Origin: Spirochaetota bacterium
GTDB taxonomy: Bacteria > Spirochaetota > UBA4802 > JAFGDQ01
Direction: 5' to 3'
Length of the DNA: 64,000 bases
Assembly (NCBI GenBank): GCA_034190085.1
Contig: JAXHTS010000052.1
Span: forward strand, 1 to 64,000
Shown: one piece after another, positions 9,779 through 34,706 of the stretch
How the letters are laid out: every line of letters starts with the position of its first letter
How positions within the stretch are numbered: the stretch's first letter is position 1
Program-made: the position numbers and the translations under genes
The notes under the pieces: model-generated
The model's input: only the letters and a program-made list of their open reading frames with translations
What the model was told of the DNA's origin: nothing
Database searches by the model: none

Positions 9779-10240
9779 ATGCTAACAGATAGATTTGATA
9801 TGTCATCAGATAAGTTGATATGGTATTCAATTGATGAATTATATGGAAAATCGATTGAACGAGAATTCATAATAACTGAAGAATTGATTGATCACTTTGC
9901 TCATATTTCTGGTGATTTTAGTAGTATACATATTTCAAATAAAGCAGCTAAAGCTAAAGGTTTTAAAGGACGAGTTGCGCATGGAATCTTATTAACGAGT
10001 TTTGTTTCAGCAATAATTGGGATGGACTTGCCTGGTGAAAAAAGTATTTTACAAAGTATTGAAATGAAATATCTCTATCCATGTTATCACAATGACAAGA
10101 TTACAATCAAGTTGGAAATAACCGAAATATTCAAATCTGTCAAAACTGTAATTGCAAAAGTAAACATCTTCAACCAAGAAGGAACTAAAGTTTCGAAGGC
10201 TAAAATTCAAATTGGATTAAAAGAAGATTATAATGGATGA
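9779..10240 (+). CDS. MaoC-like (R)-specific enoyl hydratase/dehydratase, hot-dog fold
   Basis: The 153-residue protein carries the hydratase-2 signature FAHISGDFSSIHISNKAA, in which Asp46 and His51 are the expected catalytic pair, followed by GFKGRVAHGILLTSF. Enzymes of this family add or remove water at the 2,3 position of acyl thioesters on CoA or ACP. The stop overlaps the start of the FkbH-like gene by 8 bases, which ties it to the acyl-carrier module downstream. I infer that it processes an ACP-bound acyl group. Confidence 0.85.
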   Translation: MLTDRFDMSSDKLIWYSIDELYGKSIEREFIITEELIDHFAHISGDFSSIHISNKAAKAKGFKGRVAHGILLTSFVSAIIGMDLPGEKSILQSIEMKYLYPCYHNDKITIKLEITEIFKSVKTVIAKVNIFNQEGTKVSKAKIQIGLKEDYNG

Positions 10241-12173
10241 AAAAATAACTAACGAATTGAAAGAATTTATTACATCTGAAGGGCAAAAAAGATTACTCCT
10301 TTTCCCAAAATTTAAAAAATCATTATCGAAAATGATTTCTTCAAATCAATCAGATGTTGCATTCAACGTTTTGAAATCAGCTTTATCTATAGATTATGAC
10401 TACTCTACTTTTAAATCCTATTATAATTTAGTAAATAAAGTACGAACATATAATCTGAATAAAAATATAAATAAGACAAAAATAGCAATATTAGGTAGTT
10501 ATACGACCAATCAGTTAACATGGTTTATTGATCTATTTTTATTCTGTTCAGACATTGATGTAGAAATTTATGAGTCAGAATATAGCGTAATAAATCAGGA
10601 AATTTATTCAAAAGATTCGAATTTATATCGCTTTAAACCTCAAATTGTCATTCTAATATGTGGACACAAGGATATCAAATTATTTCCAAAATTTGGACTA
10701 AGCGAAAATGATGTAAAAGAAATTGTTGATCAGGAAATCAATCGTTGGATGAATTTATGGAATACATTACACACGAATATTAACTGTCAAATAATACAAA
10801 ATAATTTTGATATTCCTCCATGGAATGTTATGGGCAACATTGAACACAGAGTTCCATATTCACAAGGAATGTATTTTACATATTTGAATCAATCTTTATC
10901 TAAAAAAGCTCCAGCTTATGTCAATATTCATGATATTGACATGCTCTCTTCAATGCATGGGAAATTAGAATGGTGTGATCAAAGATTTTATTACGATTCT
11001 AAACTCCCTTGCACACCAGAATTACTTCCATCATATGCCAACAGTATCGCATCGATAATAGTTGCATTACTTGGCAAAAGTAAAAAATGTTTGGTTTTAG
11101 ATTTAGACAATACTATATGGGGAGGTGTTATTGGTGACGATGGATTAGGTGGTATTTCTCTTGGTCAAGGAAATCCAACAGGTGAAGCATTTCTAAATTT
11201 TCAGCAATATATAAAAAATCTAAAGGATCGAGGTATTATTCTAGCAGTTTGTTCTAAGAATGATGAAAAAAATGCTAAAGAACCATTTTTAAGACATCCT
11301 GATATGATTTTAAAATTAGACGACATCACTTGTTTTTTAGCAAACTGGAATAATAAAGTAGCAAATATACAGAAAATAGCACAAGAGATTAATATTGGCA
11401 CTGACTCAATAGTATTTGTTGATGATAATCCACACGAGAGAGGAATTGTACGATATTATCTCCCTGAAGTTGCTGTGCCTGAAATGCCAGAGGACCCAGC
11501 ATTTTACATACAGAAAATTGACAGCTATCGTTATTTTGAGACAACTTCCTTCACTAATGAAGATCTAATACGAGCAGAGTTATACTCGTCAGATATTAAA
11601 AGAAAGAAATTGCAAAATAAGATAGTAAATATTGATGATTATCTTCAGTCACTGAATATGAAAGCAATAGTAGAACCAATTAATCCAGAAAACATCAACA
11701 GGTCTGTTCAACTAATTAATAAGACAAATCAATTCAACCTCACAACAAAACGTTATACAAAAATTAATATTGAAGAAATAATAAATAATTCTTCCTGGAA
11801 AACCTTTACAGTACGACTTATTGACAATTTCGGTGATAATGGCTTAATTTCAATTATACTATCTGAAATTAAAAATGAAACTTTGATAATTGATACTTGG
11901 CTTATGAGTTGTCGGGTTTTAAACCGTGGAGTTGAACAATTTCTTATGAATTATATCTGTAATTTATCACGAAATAATAATATTTCGATTATTGAAGGTA
12001 AGTATATACCGACTGCAAAGAATAAAATGGTTGAAAAATTATACTTCCATTTAGGATTTGAACAAATAAATGATTTAAATGACGGTACTACATACTGGTC
12101 ATTAAAAACAAATTCAATTAATATTAATAATTTAAAATATTTCATTATGGAGGGAAAAAAGAGAGATGTCTGA
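10233..12173 (+). CDS. FkbH-like HAD-IIIC protein (glyceryl- or acyl-ACP forming)
   Basis: A 646-residue protein. The N-terminal third resembles the SGNH-like part seen in long FkbH proteins (AILGSYTTNQLTWFIDLFLF). The HAD motif LVLDLDNTIWGGVIGDDG puts the two catalytic Asp at 290 and 292. AVCSKNDEKNAKEPF and IVFVDDNPHERGIVRYYLPE supply the later HAD motifs. The C-terminal part (about 480-640) is GNAT-like. Characterised FkbH-type enzymes take 1,3-bisphosphoglycerate and load a glyceryl group on an ACP. Here the ACP gene follows with an 8-base overlap, which strongly supports that role; the exact acyl group is inferred. Confidence 0.85.
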   Translation: MDEKITNELKEFITSEGQKRLLLFPKFKKSLSKMISSNQSDVAFNVLKSALSIDYDYSTFKSYYNLVNKVRTYNLNKNINKTKIAILGSYTTNQLTWFIDLFLFCSDIDVEIYESEYSVINQEIYSKDSNLYRFKPQIVILICGHKDIKLFPKFGLSENDVKEIVDQEINRWMNLWNTLHTNINCQIIQNNFDIPPWNVMGNIEHRVPYSQGMYFTYLNQSLSKKAPAYVNIHDIDMLSSMHGKLEWCDQRFYYDSKLPCTPELLPSYANSIASIIVALLGKSKKCLVLDLDNTIWGGVIGDDGLGGISLGQGNPTGEAFLNFQQYIKNLKDRGIILAVCSKNDEKNAKEPFLRHPDMILKLDDITCFLANWNNKVANIQKIAQEINIGTDSIVFVDDNPHERGIVRYYLPEVAVPEMPEDPAFYIQKIDSYRYFETTSFTNEDLIRAELYSSDIKRKKLQNKIVNIDDYLQSLNMKAIVEPINPENINRSVQLINKTNQFNLTTKRYTKINIEEIINNSSWKTFTVRLIDNFGDNGLISIILSEIKNETLIIDTWLMSCRVLNRGVEQFLMNYICNLSRNNNISIIEGKYIPTAKNKMVEKLYFHLGFEQINDLNDGTTYWSLKTNSININNLKYFIMEGKKRDV

Positions 12174-12414
12174 TGTTAAAAATCAATTACAACAAATATT
12201 CCGTGATATTTTTGAAGATGATAGTATAATAATTTTTGATGAGATGACAGGTGATGATATTGAAGAATGGGATTCCCTTGAACATATTAATCTTATTATT
12301 GCTGTTGAGAAAAACTTTAATATTCAATTTGCCACATCTGAAATTTCCAGATTAAAAGATGCAGACCAAAATGTTGGAAAATTTATTAAACTTATTGAAC
12401 AAAAAATTTGTTAA
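12166..12414 (+). CDS. Acyl carrier protein
   Basis: This is an 82-residue acidic protein. The phosphopantetheine attachment serine is Ser37 in EEWDSLEHINLI, followed by VEKNFNIQFATSEI, the usual helix II-III region. GGAGG about 10 bases before the ATG is a clear ribosome site inside the end of the FkbH-like gene. It is the likely carrier for the FkbH product and the donor to the MBOAT protein, the position DltC holds in dlt operons. Confidence 0.9.
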   Translation: MSDVKNQLQQIFRDIFEDDSIIIFDEMTGDDIEEWDSLEHINLIIAVEKNFNIQFATSEISRLKDADQNVGKFIKLIEQKIC

Positions 12415-12431: not shown

Positions 12432-13664
12432 ATGAATATTGCTTCCATTCCCTTTCTGATTTTCATAAGTTTATCAGTTATCCTGTTTTTATTAGGAAAC
12501 AATCTTGTATATCGTCAATTACTTTTAAGTTTTATTAATTTAATTTTTCTTATTACTTATATACAAAATATTAATACTTGTATTGTTTTTTTTGTTTTTA
12601 TTTTATCAAGTTATTTAATCTTAAAACTTATTAAAAAATACTCATTACAAAATTATATATTCATTTTTGTATCCATTATCGTTGTATTTTTCCTCTTTAT
12701 AAAAAAATATGATTTTCTAAAACTGATCATCCCTACAAACTTACTAGATCATAAAATTGAGTTGATTGGCATATCCTATATGATGTTTAAATTAATACAT
12801 ATGATTATTGACTTATATCAAAATCAATTATCCAATATCAAATTACTTTACTATGCAAACTACCAGTTAGGTTTTTTTTCTTTGTTAGCAGGACCAATTC
12901 AACGTTATAATGATTTTTATAATTATTTTAATGAAATTGATAAAACCTCATTCACTAAAAATGAAATCTTATCTTCATGGAATAGGGTACTTACTGGAAT
13001 GTTTAAAATGGGATTATTATCAATTTTAGCACTCAAACTTTATCAAAGGGAAGCTATTGGAGTAATAAGTAATGTTTCAAGTATCAAAGTAATTGTACAC
13101 TTTATGATATATTTTTATAGTTATCCAATTTATGTTTATTTAAACTTTTCAGGTTATTGTGATATCGTTATTGGTTGCGCTCAACTTATTGGTCTTAAAT
13201 TACCAGAAAATTTTAATAGTCCTTTTATAGCTCGCAATATGGTTGAATTTTGGAACAGATGGCATATTACTCTTTCAATCTGGATTAGGGACTATATCTT
13301 TATGAATTCTTACAAATGGATCGCTCAAAAATGGAATAGACATGCGAAGAATGCTGGATATATACTTATATTTATAACATTTTTTATTGCTGGTGTTTGG
13401 CATGGTTCAACCTGGAATTTTATTATTTTTGGATTAATTCATGGTTTTGGTGTTGCAGTAACACGTATTTATGGGGATATTTTAAAATCATTGCTTGGTC
13501 GTTCAGGATTGAAGAATTACTATAAGAATTCTGCAATTAGGTTGATTGCTATATTTATCACTTTTAATTATGTTTGTTTTAGTTTTATTTTTTTTCATGT
13601 TGATTTAAATCGAACTTTAAAAATTGTTAATACTTTTTTTATATCCATAATTTCATTTATATAA
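12432..13664 (+). CDS. MBOAT-family membrane acyltransferase (DltB/AlgI-like)
   Basis: A 410-residue polytopic membrane protein. The MBOAT landmarks are YFSFLLAGP-type LGFFSLLAGPIQRYNDF, VYLNFSGYCDIVIG, FWNRWHITLSIWIRDYIF and AGVWHGSTWNFIIFG followed by LIHGFG. His324 (in WHG) and His337 (in LIHG) are the two conserved histidines, the second being the usual catalytic one. It is somewhat shorter than typical AlgI/DltB proteins because the C-terminal helices are fewer. MBOAT partners of this kind pass an acyl group from a cytoplasmic ACP to an extracytoplasmic acceptor. Confidence 0.88.
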   Translation: MNIASIPFLIFISLSVILFLLGNNLVYRQLLLSFINLIFLITYIQNINTCIVFFVFILSSYLILKLIKKYSLQNYIFIFVSIIVVFFLFIKKYDFLKLIIPTNLLDHKIELIGISYMMFKLIHMIIDLYQNQLSNIKLLYYANYQLGFFSLLAGPIQRYNDFYNYFNEIDKTSFTKNEILSSWNRVLTGMFKMGLLSILALKLYQREAIGVISNVSSIKVIVHFMIYFYSYPIYVYLNFSGYCDIVIGCAQLIGLKLPENFNSPFIARNMVEFWNRWHITLSIWIRDYIFMNSYKWIAQKWNRHAKNAGYILIFITFFIAGVWHGSTWNFIIFGLIHGFGVAVTRIYGDILKSLLGRSGLKNYYKNSAIRLIAIFITFNYVCFSFIFFHVDLNRTLKIVNTFFISIISFI

Positions 13665-13678
13665 TCAATTAATAATAA

Positions 13679-13837
13679 ATGATGAAACAATTTATAAAAT
13701 TTAACAACAGAATAAAACCAAATGATACATATTTTATGGTTTATATCATTTTTAAAGCTATCATTATTTTAATTATTCTTTCTGTATTGTGGGCATTGGA
13801 AAATAAAGATTCTGTTGTTCTATATATGGATTTCTAA
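13679..13837 (+). CDS. DltX-like 52-residue membrane microprotein, MBOAT partner
   Basis: This small gene reads ATGATGAAACAA through to TAA at 13835-13837, with the stop overlapping the next ATG by one base. The protein has a basic amphipathic N-terminus (residues 1-17), one membrane helix (about 20-40) and a short tail ending VVLYMDF, with Tyr49 four residues from the end. DltX of Gram-positive D-alanylation is the same size and lies next to the MBOAT protein. It ends in a similar aromatic tail whose Tyr accepts the acyl group. The position between MBOAT and DltD-like genes makes coding very likely. The acyl-acceptor role is inferred from the motif and context. Confidence 0.75.
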   Translation: MMKQFIKFNNRIKPNDTYFMVYIIFKAIIILIILSVLWALENKDSVVLYMDF

Positions 13838-14859
13838 TGAAGTCAAGTAATCAGAATAATGATAATAATGATAATAATAAATGGATAATAATATCTCCAT
13901 CAATGTATATTTTAATTATTTCATTGTTTATAATGATATTACTTTACTCAATATCAATATTTTTTTCAAAAGATATGAACCAATTTCTTAAGTTATACCG
14001 AGTTCCTACATTTGAGGAGTCACTAATCTATTATCAAATGAGTTATGTTCACAACTCAAATGAGTATAATGATGTGATTTTTCTAGGAGAAAGTGCATGT
14101 CTTTCTGGAATAATAACAAGACAATTTGAAAAAAAAACAAACTTAAAAGCCTACAACTTAGGTACATTAGGATGGCTCGGTCCTGATGGATATATTGATA
14201 TACTGAAATCTTACATTGAAAATCATCATGAACCAAAAATTATTGTATTTGCAGTTTTCCCACCTTTATTGGCAGATGAAAAGTCAAAAAATCCTGAAAT
14301 AAAAAAAAGATTTATAAGATCGTTTGGTGGTGATATTAAAACAAGTATGCTTAATTCTTCTATACCTCCTCAGTATTTGGTTCGCGAGGGTATAAGAACT
14401 ATTTTTGGTAAAATTCAAGGGGGAGCTGATTATTATTTCAATGTAAATCGATATCATAGACCTAGTCATTTTGATATGTCGAGATCTATTTTAGAGCAAA
14501 GGGGTTTTCAGGAAGATATTCGTCGAAAAACAATCAAACCAATTGAAAAAAAAGCATTTATAGTCTCAAAAAAATACAAAAAAAACATATTCGATATGGC
14601 TCTTTTAGCAAGAAAAAAAAATGTTATTCTAATGATTCGTCTAATGCCAATTCCCTTTCAGGAAAATTATATCGATGCAACGCCTTTAATTCAATACTTG
14701 AAAGTTATTGAAAAAGAATTTTCGAATGTTATTATTGATAAACCAATAATACTTCATTATAATACAAAACTCTACGCTAAAATCACACACCTCAATATAT
14801 ATGGTGCTAGAAAATTTACAAATTATTTATCAAAAAGGATATCAAAAATAATAAAATGA
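13837..14859 (+). CDS. DltD/AlgJ-like SGNH-type membrane-anchored protein
   Basis: This 340-residue protein has an Asn/Asp-rich N-terminus (NNDNNDNN), one membrane helix (about residues 25-45) and an extracytoplasmic domain. VIFLGESACLSGI supplies the SGNH nucleophile candidate Ser86. AYNLGTLGWLGPDGY resembles block II, and KITHLNIYGARKF supplies His318 as the block V candidate. The Asp three residues before that His in canonical SGNH enzymes is not visible here (it is Lys), so the catalytic triad is uncertain. In dlt operons DltD makes the final transfer to the polymer; the same order here suggests the same role. Confidence 0.7.
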   Translation: MKSSNQNNDNNDNNKWIIISPSMYILIISLFIMILLYSISIFFSKDMNQFLKLYRVPTFEESLIYYQMSYVHNSNEYNDVIFLGESACLSGIITRQFEKKTNLKAYNLGTLGWLGPDGYIDILKSYIENHHEPKIIVFAVFPPLLADEKSKNPEIKKRFIRSFGGDIKTSMLNSSIPPQYLVREGIRTIFGKIQGGADYYFNVNRYHRPSHFDMSRSILEQRGFQEDIRRKTIKPIEKKAFIVSKKYKKNIFDMALLARKKNVILMIRLMPIPFQENYIDATPLIQYLKVIEKEFSNVIIDKPIILHYNTKLYAKITHLNIYGARKFTNYLSKRISKIIK

Positions 14860-15608
14860 CAAAATCATACAATTTTGATACTTGTTTAATCACTGGAGGT
14901 TCACGAGGAATTGGTGCTGCAATAGCCTTAAAGTTATATAGTAAAGTTAAAACTATATATTTAAATTATCATAAAAACCGAAATCAAGCGAATCTAATCT
15001 GCAATCTTATTCATGAATCAGGGGGAAGAGCAATCCCCATCAAAGCAGATGTGTCAGATATTCTTGCTGTGAACAAAATAATAGAAAAAATACAAATAGA
15101 AAATAGTAAACTTGATATTTTGATTCATAATGCTTCACTTCCAATTATTCCACAAAAAACTTTGAAATTAGATTGGGAAGAAGACATTTTACCTCAAATA
15201 GAAGTTGCATGTTTAGGTTTTCTTAATTGTATAAAATCAGCAAATCATTTGTTTGTCGAAGGTAGTAAAATAATTGTTATTTTAACAGATGCTTTATTTC
15301 ATACACCACCTGTGCAAATGGGTGCATATTTAACAGCAAAAGGCGCATTATGGGGATTAGTCAGATCCGTTGCAAAAGAATTTCAAAGCAAAAAAATTTC
15401 AGTTAATGTAGTTTCACCAGGTATGACAAAAACTGAATTACTAACTAATTATAATGAGAGGTCATTGGAAATTATTGCTAATGATTTACCTTTAGGTAGA
15501 CTTGCAAAACCTGAAGAAATTGCATCTGCAATAGAAATAATAATTGGACAATCAGGAGATTATATGCATGGAGCTAATATTGTGTTAAATGGTGGTGTGT
15601 ATTTTTAG
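14856..15608 (+). CDS. Short-chain dehydrogenase/reductase, FabG-like
   Basis: The 250-residue protein has the nucleotide-binding TGGSRGIGAAIALKL, the HNAS motif and the catalytic YLTAK (Tyr158, Lys162). The serine normally 13 residues before the Tyr is Asp145, with Thr144 beside it (ILTDALFHTPP), so the standard Ser-Tyr-Lys triad is altered. C-terminal motifs VNVVSPGMTKTELL and GANIVLNGG are normal. It overlaps the DltD-like gene by 4 bases. It may act on an ACP-bound 3-oxo or 3-hydroxyacyl group, or on a sugar. Confidence 0.82.
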   Translation: MTKSYNFDTCLITGGSRGIGAAIALKLYSKVKTIYLNYHKNRNQANLICNLIHESGGRAIPIKADVSDILAVNKIIEKIQIENSKLDILIHNASLPIIPQKTLKLDWEEDILPQIEVACLGFLNCIKSANHLFVEGSKIIVILTDALFHTPPVQMGAYLTAKGALWGLVRSVAKEFQSKKISVNVVSPGMTKTELLTNYNERSLEIIANDLPLGRLAKPEEIASAIEIIIGQSGDYMHGANIVLNGGVYF

Positions 15609-15659: not shown

Positions 15660-16160
15660 ATGATTCTTTGTATTAAACAAATATTTTATCTTATCCAATA
15701 TTATTGGAGAGAGTTCAAACAAAAATGTATAAAACAATTATATTTTAATCAAATTGAAAAACGTGATGGATGCACCATTAGTTCTCTAGCCAATTTTACT
15801 GGGCCTATTGAAAACATTTCTATTGGGAAAGGTTCACGCATTAATGGATATGCAAATTTACGATTCAAGAAAGGACGAATTACAATTGGTAGCAATGTGC
15901 TTTTTGGCCAGTTCGTTACAATAATTGCACATTCTTATAATTACGAAAACAAAAATCAACTCATTAAAGATCAAGGTATGTATACGAAGGATGTAGTAAT
16001 TGGCAATGATGTTTGGATTGGAGCCTATACACTCATTATGCCTGGTGTTAAGATTGGAGATGGTGCCGTTATTGGAGCATCTTCAGTTGTTACAAAAAAT
16101 GTTCCTGAATATGAAGTTTAGGCTGGGATCCCTGCTAAAAAGATAAAAGAACGGATATAG
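15660..16160 (+). pseudogene. Hexapeptide-repeat O-acetyltransferase interrupted by an in-frame TAG
   Basis: The reading frame gives a left-handed beta-helix acetyltransferase ([57 protein letters not shown]), then TAG at 16119-16121. Without a frame change it continues with AGIPAKKIKERI and a true stop at 16158-16160. Relatives have one residue (often Trp, Tyr or Val) at the stop position in the tail xAGxPAK. A TGG to TAG change is the simplest explanation. The truncated 153-residue product lacks only the last 13 positions and might still fold, so loss of function is likely but not certain. Confidence 0.8.
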
Positions 16161-33191: not shown

Positions 33192-34706
33192 TCAATAAAT
33201 CAAATATTTATTTTTATAAAACTCTATGATCCTAGATAAAATGACAATAAAAAAGAATACTGAAACAGGAAAAATATGCAATAACATTCTATTGCCACTA
33301 CCCCAACAGTTATCATCAGCTATGGAAGGCGCGATTGTATATAATATTAGACGGAACCAAAAGAATATTAAAATACTATACAATAGAAATCTTACACTTT
33401 TATCGTTAAAAATGAAAATTAAGCTAATGGGAATTGCAATTAATATTAAATACCAGTGTATACCCCATCCACCGAAATCATTATAAAACATTAGTTTCAA
33501 TAAATTTTTAAGTGATTCTGTGAATTCCTTTGAAAAAAAGATTACTAATATTATAGAAACAATAATTACCAATGAAAAAAAAATTGAATTTTGATATTTT
33601 TTAATTATATTTTGCGTTATTTTCAAATTTATTAAGATATAACACAATATAGATAATACCAAACATTGAGTATACAGATAATAATTTCCTGCACTATTTA
33701 GTGAATTATTATAATTAAATAAATAACTTAATTTATATTCATTGAATAAAAACATAAATGTATACCATTGATAACCAATGATTAAAAACAAAATGAATAA
33801 TATCCATTTTCGCTCAATTGGTTCTTCAAAGAGAATTACAAATAAAAATATTGGAATTATACTAAAAAAAGCCATTTCGATTCTTAATAGAAACAATTGT
33901 GATGAAAAAATGAAACCTAATAATATAAAAATTTGGTTTTTATTTATAATTGCCAAATAAAACATGAAGGTTGATAATGAAAAAAATATACCTGTCAACA
34001 AATTGCCATTTAAATAAAATGAATGAATAACGTACATCCATGGTAAACATAAAAGTAATAATAAAAATGTATTAAAAAAAATTTTGGAGTAAGTATTTCT
34101 TGAAATAAAGTTAACTTCTTTGTTAATCAGAAAATAAAAAAGTAGAGTAAACATTATTGATGTTGTTGGAAAGATTGAATATAACATTTTAACATTAAAT
34201 AGATGACCAATTGCTAAAAGAGAGGATAAAAAAATAGAATAATATTGTGACAACCAGATTTCGAAACAAGTTCCCTTTTCAATAAATAGTCCTTCATGGA
34301 AAAGCAAACGTCCCAATCCATCATAATCTTGTGAATCAGGAGTAAAATATAAGTACTTTGATACATATGATGTAAAAATGAAGATCAAGAGTGCAAGACA
34401 CAACAGAGGAAACAGCTTTCTAATATCCTTTACGTCAAATTTCTTCAGGTTCTTAAATTGTGTTATGTATAAAGGAATTGATAATAATATGATAAAAATA
34501 GCTATTGTTGAAAGCTTTACAGAATTAAAACAATAAAGGCTGAGCAGTAAACCCTGTACCCAAATAACTAGACCAATAAAAAAACTTAAAAAACCTGATA
34601 ATGTGATTCCAATTCGATGAAAGAAGGGAATTAAAATAAATAAGCCAGTAAACCAAATTGTTGATAATAAGACTATCTGATTAAATTCATTCAATGTAAA
34701 TCTCAA
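33192..34706 (-). CDS. Polytopic membrane protein, GT-C-like, function unknown
   Basis: This is a 504-residue protein with about 11-13 hydrophobic helices. The first large loop has YLYFTPDSQDYDGLGRLLF and CFEIWLSQYYSIFLSSLLA. An acidic first loop between the first helices is typical of GT-C glycosyltransferases that use lipid-phosphate sugars, such as the product of the GT2 at 27158. I do not recognise a named family. It overlaps the gene at 34703 by 4 bases and is cotranscribed. Confidence 0.6.
   Translation of the reverse strand: MRFTLNEFNQIVLLSTIWFTGLFILIPFFHRIGITLSGFLSFFIGLVIWVQGLLLSLYCFNSVKLSTIAIFIILLSIPLYITQFKNLKKFDVKDIRKLFPLLCLALLIFIFTSYVSKYLYFTPDSQDYDGLGRLLFHEGLFIEKGTCFEIWLSQYYSIFLSSLLAIGHLFNVKMLYSIFPTTSIMFTLLFYFLINKEVNFISRNTYSKIFFNTFLLLLLCLPWMYVIHSFYLNGNLLTGIFFSLSTFMFYLAIINKNQIFILLGFIFSSQLFLLRIEMAFFSIIPIFLFVILFEEPIERKWILFILFLIIGYQWYTFMFLFNEYKLSYLFNYNNSLNSAGNYYLYTQCLVLSILCYILINLKITQNIIKKYQNSIFFSLVIIVSIILVIFFSKEFTESLKNLLKLMFYNDFGGWGIHWYLILIAIPISLIFIFNDKSVRFLLYSILIFFWFRLILYTIAPSIADDNCWGSGNRMLLHIFPVSVFFFIVILSRIIEFYKNKYLIY

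Follow-up and report, generated by a model that had tools for sequence, protein, structure and literature searches.

A DltX-like microprotein beside an FkbH-linked MBOAT acyltransferase: a likely acyl-tyrosine shuttle that is not a DltX

Can a one-helix microprotein with a C-terminal tyrosine act as the acyl shuttle of an MBOAT acyltransferase that is fed by an FkbH enzyme and not by DltA? The question is raised by a 64,000-nucleotide stretch of DNA from a Spirochaetota bacterium (the whole of which we call the window), where a small open reading frame lies within a tight operon of MaoC-like, FkbH, ACP, MBOAT, microprotein, SGNH-like and SDR genes whose ends overlap at four joints. No DltA-type AMP-binding gene was found at the locus, and FkbH stands in its place. 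The operon comprises the following features.

9779-10240, plus strand: MaoC-like hot-dog dehydratase, probably tailoring the carrier-bound acyl group (Pfam MaoC_dehydratas, 4.2e-16)
10233-12173, plus strand: FkbH-type HAD-IIIC acyl loader, counterpart of DltA (TIGR01686, 296 bits against a curated cut-off of 147; Pfam FkbH_N, 1.2e-18)
12166-12414, plus strand: acyl carrier protein with a DSL motif, counterpart of DltC (NCBIfam DltC model, 1.4e-4, the closest of the ACP models that match)
12432-13664, plus strand: short, DltB-like MBOAT acyltransferase of 410 aa without a C-terminal FxYxxF of its own (Pfam MBOAT, 2.4e-19)
13679-13837, plus strand: DltX-like microprotein of 52 aa with one TM helix and the C-terminus VVLYMDF, including Tyr49 (from the ORF, tail alignment, shuffles and relatives)
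13835-13839, plus strand: overlap TAATG of the microprotein stop and the SGNH start (translational coupling; from the sequence)
13837-14859, plus strand: membrane-anchored protein of probable SGNH fold, counterpart of DltD/PatB, with Ser86 and His318 (from a predicted model and residue columns)
14856-15608, plus strand: FabG-like SDR reductase, probably tailoring the acyl group (Pfam adh_short_C2, 3.9e-37)

Downstream, at 15660-16121 of the window, we also observe a hexapeptide acetyltransferase with an in-frame TAG within its conserved tail (VPEYEV*AGIPAKKIKERI), which is either a truncated gene or a sequence error.

The microprotein frame begins with ATG-ATG, ends with TAA and encodes MMKQFIKFNNRIKPNDTYFMVYIIFKAIIILIILSVLWALENKDSVVLYMDF. 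The first-pass annotation had described a basic N-terminus, one membrane helix and a tail VVLYMDF with Tyr49 fourth from the end, and the ORF confirms this together with its charge and hydrophobicity: the best hydrophobic 19-mer spans residues 19-37, the net charge is +3 on the N-terminal and −2 on the C-terminal side, and Tyr49 is at position −4 from the C-terminus. The protein thus has the DltX-type form (40-60 aa, a single TM helix, N-terminus inside by charge). It also lies where that annotation had placed it, between the MBOAT gene and the next gene, filling the 172-nt gap from a start 14 nt past the MBOAT stop to the TAATG overlap at the other end. The remark that it is too short for usual gene calling was overstated, since ORFs of 159 nt are long enough for common gene callers; on a Leptolinea plasmid, a counterpart of 47 aa is already annotated (as hypothetical).

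A random ORF, or a small membrane protein of another kind (a type I toxin or a leader peptide, for instance), would fit the AT-richness of the gap, the commonness of small hydrophobic ORFs and the lack of any match to the microprotein in Pfam (E ≤ 1) or NCBIfam; among PDB sequences it has no match either. Against this, when the 172-nt gap was shuffled 20,000 times with its dinucleotides preserved, an ATG ORF of at least 40 aa arose in 2.1% of cases, one with a TM segment in 0.36% and one ending in Y..F in 0.01%. Such an ending is found in 3 of the 229 window ORFs of 35-80 aa, the other two of which (at 12910, within the MBOAT gene, and at 34217 on the minus strand) have a context unlike that of the microprotein. 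Between the microproteins of closely related pairs among the relatives described below, dN/dS is about 0.1-0.4, indicating purifying selection, and the motif-blind co-occurrence and the retention of Tyr and Phe across phyla argue in the same direction. Because the gene layout recurs in other phyla, we conclude that the microprotein is not a chance product, and we regard an origin by chance, or as a toxin or leader peptide, as extremely improbable.

Relatives were found by scanning 84,980 species genomes with short MBOATs, with FkbH loci ranking above all DltBs. Nitrospirota and Omnitrophota have the layout FkbH-ACP-short MBOAT-microprotein-SGNH as well; it is reordered in Verrucomicrobiota and Acidobacteriota, and is found in Bacillota without a visible SGNH gene. 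The Nitrospirota locus (L099, Magnetobacteriaceae) encodes SDR, MaoC, FkbH, ACP, MBOAT, a 45-aa microprotein ending MIVYQNF and SGNH, with the same gene order from MaoC to SGNH as the window; the Omnitrophota locus (L100) has FkbH, ACP, MBOAT, a 44-aa microprotein ending FIAYQQF and SGNH; and the Bacillota locus (L101, Oscillospiraceae) has FkbH, ACP, MBOAT and a microprotein ending GVLYQGF, with no SGNH gene seen on its short contig. Three Verrucomicrobiota loci (L104, L124, L125) share the order FkbH, ACP, SGNH, microprotein (ending VYQGF), MBOAT, and two further reordered relatives from this phylum (L105, L115) have the same microprotein ending, with no FkbH seen in the locus sequence examined. 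The Acidobacteriota loci (L106, L219-L221), with reordered genes and tails VYQ[G/A]F, place the microprotein between ACP and SGNH in Silvibacterium (L106) and follow the order FkbH, ACP, SGNH, microprotein (ending LVYQAF), MBOAT in the three other genomes.

Across these relatives, identity to the window proteins is 35-46% for FkbH (42-44% in L099-L103), 34-56% for the ACP (50-56% in L099, L100 and L101) and 28-37% for the MBOAT. MaoC homologues are present at L099, L100, L125, L045 and L046, and SDR homologues at all of these but L100. The short FkbH-linked type is rare and scattered: at the thresholds used, it was found only in the query genome among 193 Omnitrophota, 240 Verrucomicrobiota, 291 Clostridia and 198 Nitrospirota genomes, and in 4 of 199 Acidobacteriota genomes. 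No second copy of the arrangement was found in the whole source genome, in 59 relatives (MBOAT search) or in 296 genomes of the phylum (SGNH and FkbH searches). Two FkbH loci from the same phylum (G193, G293) hold MaoC, SDR, FkbH and ACP genes; the MBOAT of G293 has a fused tail and that of G193 runs off the contig. In viral contigs, a single-protein MBOAT scan returned nothing, an alignment-based scan only fused MBOATs, and an FkbH scan seven loci, none of the seven with a short MBOAT.

Conservation of the C-terminal motif had been set beforehand as a test of the reading, and the FkbH-linked relatives in five other phyla indeed keep Tyr(−4) and Phe(−1), outside which these microproteins can hardly be aligned. 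Both residues are invariant in 16/16 non-Dlt microproteins, which are 9-24% identical to the window protein. The first survey had looked for Y..F ORFs and was repeated motif-blind to test for a selection effect, admitting every ORF of 28-80 aa that contains a TM segment, lies outside large ORFs and is at most 3 kb from an MBOAT; this count is the fairer test, because the set of 16 was partly found via the motif. A small TM ORF ending in Y..F lies near 7/7 FkbH-linked short MBOATs and near 39/43 of those that have an AMP-binding gene, the latter being for the most part Dlt loci. Near fused-tail MBOATs the count is 1/95, and this one ORF adjoins another MBOAT of L110 that has no motif of its own. 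The rows are not independent, so that a Fisher value calculated from these counts is not to be taken as a probability. The acidic residue of the tail, which had been proposed as part of the motif (Tyr-x-acidic-Phe), is not conserved: the FkbH-linked relatives end in Y-Q-[G/A/N/Q]-F, and only Tyr and Phe are invariant. Gln(−3) is found in 14 of the 16, the window having Met at that place (Y-M-D-F). Compared with FXYXXF, the window tail retains Tyr(−4) and Phe(−1), and the first Phe is replaced by Val; position −6 is V/L/I/W in the relatives (mostly aliphatic) and Phe in DltX and fused tails.

The window MBOAT belongs to its family by both score (PF03062, 70 bits against a cut-off of 27) and the presence of both invariant histidines. 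Its best NCBIfam match is DltB (TIGR04091) at 212 bits, under the equivalog cut-off of 375; the FkbH-linked relatives score 178-210 bits and Listeria DltB 530. The catalytic histidine had been given as His337 and is instead H324: several FkbH relatives have Gln at position 337, and the residues invariant in 25/25 aligned MBOATs are H278 and H324, with the same spacing as His289 and His336 of DltB (residues from PMC11035591). The predicted model (pLDDT 88.6) has its best solved matches in DltB (8jem and 6bug, E about 1e-13), other MBOATs matching at E of 1e-6 and worse. Its C-terminal end coincides with that of DltB, and the extra helices of fused MBOATs are absent. Canonical MBOATs of related genomes end in FxYxxF (for example FIYFRF and FIYFQF).

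In a 51-row tree, the FkbH-linked MBOATs cluster together (91/90) next to the DltB clade (100/100) and not within it. The MBOATs of the window, L099, L100 and L101, which have a separate tail, group at 100/98 support with five proteins from Omnitrophota and Acidobacteriota whose tail is fused. Omnitrophota L102 and L103 are FkbH-linked with the tail fused to the MBOAT, and the fused tail of L102 (KPQFVYQMF) resembles the separate tail of L099 (KPMIVYQNF). Since the group mixes both states and these tails are alike, an identical kind of tail is joined or separate among near relatives. These fused relatives within the same clade, and the fact that the microprotein frame differs from the MBOAT frame, could suggest that the ORF is the tail of an ordinary MBOAT gene severed by a frameshift. 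The microprotein, however, begins at an ATG of its own, and its stop codon shares bases with the start codon of the SGNH gene; the split state is common to several phyla, in which the microprotein also occurs ahead of the MBOAT or between the ACP and SGNH genes; and the MBOAT ends where DltB ends, without the extra helices. A severed tail is therefore highly improbable, and we rejected it together with the chance ORF and the toxin or leader peptide, all of which are already contradicted by counter-evidence.

Separate microproteins also adjoin MBOATs outside the FkbH and DltB groups (Chloroflexota L050 and L110, Bacillota L140 and L150, Acidobacteriota L223). In Chloroflexota, they end in WIYQGF and lie immediately before the MBOAT (L050 4280-4423, annotated only as hypothetical; L110 5382-5495, followed by an ACP and an AMP-binding enzyme). 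In Neobacillus/Paenibacillus, a short MBOAT and SGNH are accompanied by a 60-aa microprotein ending FIYMNF (L140 8040-8219, L150 8012-8194, L173 8013-8195), with no carrier protein or loader gene recognised within about 6 kb in L140 and L150. In Bacteriovorax (L123 7180-7281), a 34-aa TM microprotein ending FGFQYEF, with Tyr at −3 and not −4, lies between a short MBOAT and an ACP that is followed by a class II aminoacyl-synthetase-like ligase; this may be a variant of the system for aminoacyl groups, with its motif shifted.

The gene downstream of the microprotein had been called DltD-like, which is valid for place and probably for fold, and not for sequence, because the protein has no Pfam match and its model matches SGNH esterases; DltD cannot be aligned to it by BLAST. 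The model is of middling confidence (pLDDT 68.5), with an N-terminal helix at 21-53 and best PDB matches, all SGNH esterases, at 3.6e-4. Ser86 and His318 are present, and Lys occupies the expected position of the triad Asp. Among the relatives, the SGNH partner in L099 (7338-8273) has Cys-Ser (GDCS) at the expected nucleophile Ser block, and in L104 (1939-5528) the FkbH/ACP genes are separated from the microprotein by three SGNH genes in tandem.

Taken together, we consider it very likely that the microprotein is an acyl-Tyr shuttle that works like DltX, which handles D-alanine for Gram-positive cell walls, but that it serves a pathway for another acyl group and is fed by an FkbH-loaded carrier protein. 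This reading, which the first-pass annotation had proposed from size, place and the C-terminal Tyr, is supported by motif conservation, by a topology that matches as well, and by a partner MBOAT without a fused motif. Its grounds are gene order, Tyr/Phe conservation, fold and family assignments, the motif-less MBOAT and the fusion in relatives. The acyl-Tyr chemistry of the tail motif is established for DltX and PatA; the Tyr of FxYxxF is auto-acetylated in PatA, and the motif is also carried on the separate protein DltX (PMC12148441, 2025). Glyceryl is the group that FkbH enzymes load, with 1,3-bisphosphoglycerate as its probable source (PMC13122637).

For the chemistry on Tyr49, the acyl group and the glycan target, we infer the following course. 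FkbH would load the carrier protein with a small hydroxyacyl group, which is most likely glyceryl drawn from 1,3-bisphosphoglycerate (a product assumed from polyketide/peptide systems, not glycan loci), and MaoC and SDR, which travel with FkbH, would perhaps reshape it. On the cytoplasmic side, the short MBOAT would then take the acyl group over from the carrier and, via His324, transfer it to the Tyr49 hydroxyl, predicted to lie in the exported C-terminal tail. The acyl-Tyr tail may swing to Ser86 of the membrane-anchored SGNH protein, which would put the acyl group on a surface glycan, probably made by the surrounding glycosyltransferase genes of the cluster. Counting against such a shuttle are the Val, not aromatic, at −6, the missing Gln at −3, the Lys in place of the triad Asp and the lack of a visible SGNH gene in L101.

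Alternatively, the microprotein could be a scaffold that holds MBOAT and SGNH together while the MBOAT channel hands the acyl group straight to the SGNH Ser or the glycan, with Tyr49 unacylated. One-helix subunits often act as scaffolds, and a 2024 DltB structure paper still weighed a regulatory role for the helices of DltX and DltD (PMC11035591). However, the conserved part is the C-terminal Tyr and Phe alone and not the helix, and the same hexapeptide, when fused on MBOATs, is acylated there (PMC12148441), so that we consider a pure scaffold unlikely.

The 2025 paper describes MBOAT/SGNH pathways outside Dlt as having neither a carrier protein nor a DltX-like microprotein (PMC12148441). This generalisation does not hold for the loci described here, which come from the group of the window and from at least five further phyla. 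Full-text literature searches, outside whose scope the founding Dlt mechanism paper (Nat Microbiol 2023) lies, returned no report of a DltX-like microprotein with FkbH. If the shuttle reading is right, these loci imply that groups derived from FkbH, probably glyceryl, are carried across the membrane and onto surface glycans. Moreover, one clade supplies a naturally split and a naturally fused shuttle, so that the model is directly testable by tail swapping. We lean towards a broader joint reading, in which the stand-alone acyl-Tyr shuttle is a general, exchangeable part of bacterial MBOAT-SGNH machines that was split or fused more than once, is not specific to D-alanine, and serves donors loaded by DltA, FkbH, other AMP-binding enzymes and the L123 ligase, and even carrier-free systems (L140, L150, L173).

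With respect to known systems, the window resembles Dlt in the size, single TM helix, basic N-terminus and C-terminal Tyr(−4)/Phe(−1) of the microprotein, as well as in a DltB-length MBOAT without its own motif, a dedicated carrier protein and a membrane-anchored partner of probable SGNH fold. It differs in that its loader is FkbH and not DltA, with no linkage to dltA; the microprotein and its relatives have no PF12459 match (threshold 25 bits; Listeria DltX control 57 bits) and position −6 in the window is aliphatic, not aromatic; the MBOAT falls in a separate clade, below the DltB cut-off; the SGNH protein does not align with DltD; and loci of this type occur in other phyla. By Pfam, MBOAT clade and loader, the microprotein is not a DltX. 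PatA/AlgI-type MBOAT and SGNH systems (PatAB and kin) share the C-terminal Tyr shuttle motif, the MBOAT-SGNH pair and surface polymer acylation (predicted here); these systems, however, use acyl-CoA as donor, with no carrier protein, and have the tail joined to the MBOAT on two additional helices (PMC12148441), whereas the window encodes its tail as a gene of its own and would draw on a carrier-bound donor. FkbH loading systems for polyketide/peptide glyceryl groups (e.g., suomilide; PMC13122637) likewise combine an FkbH HAD-type enzyme with a carrier, but in the window the next enzyme is a transmembrane MBOAT with a shuttle microprotein and an SGNH protein, in a glycan cluster.
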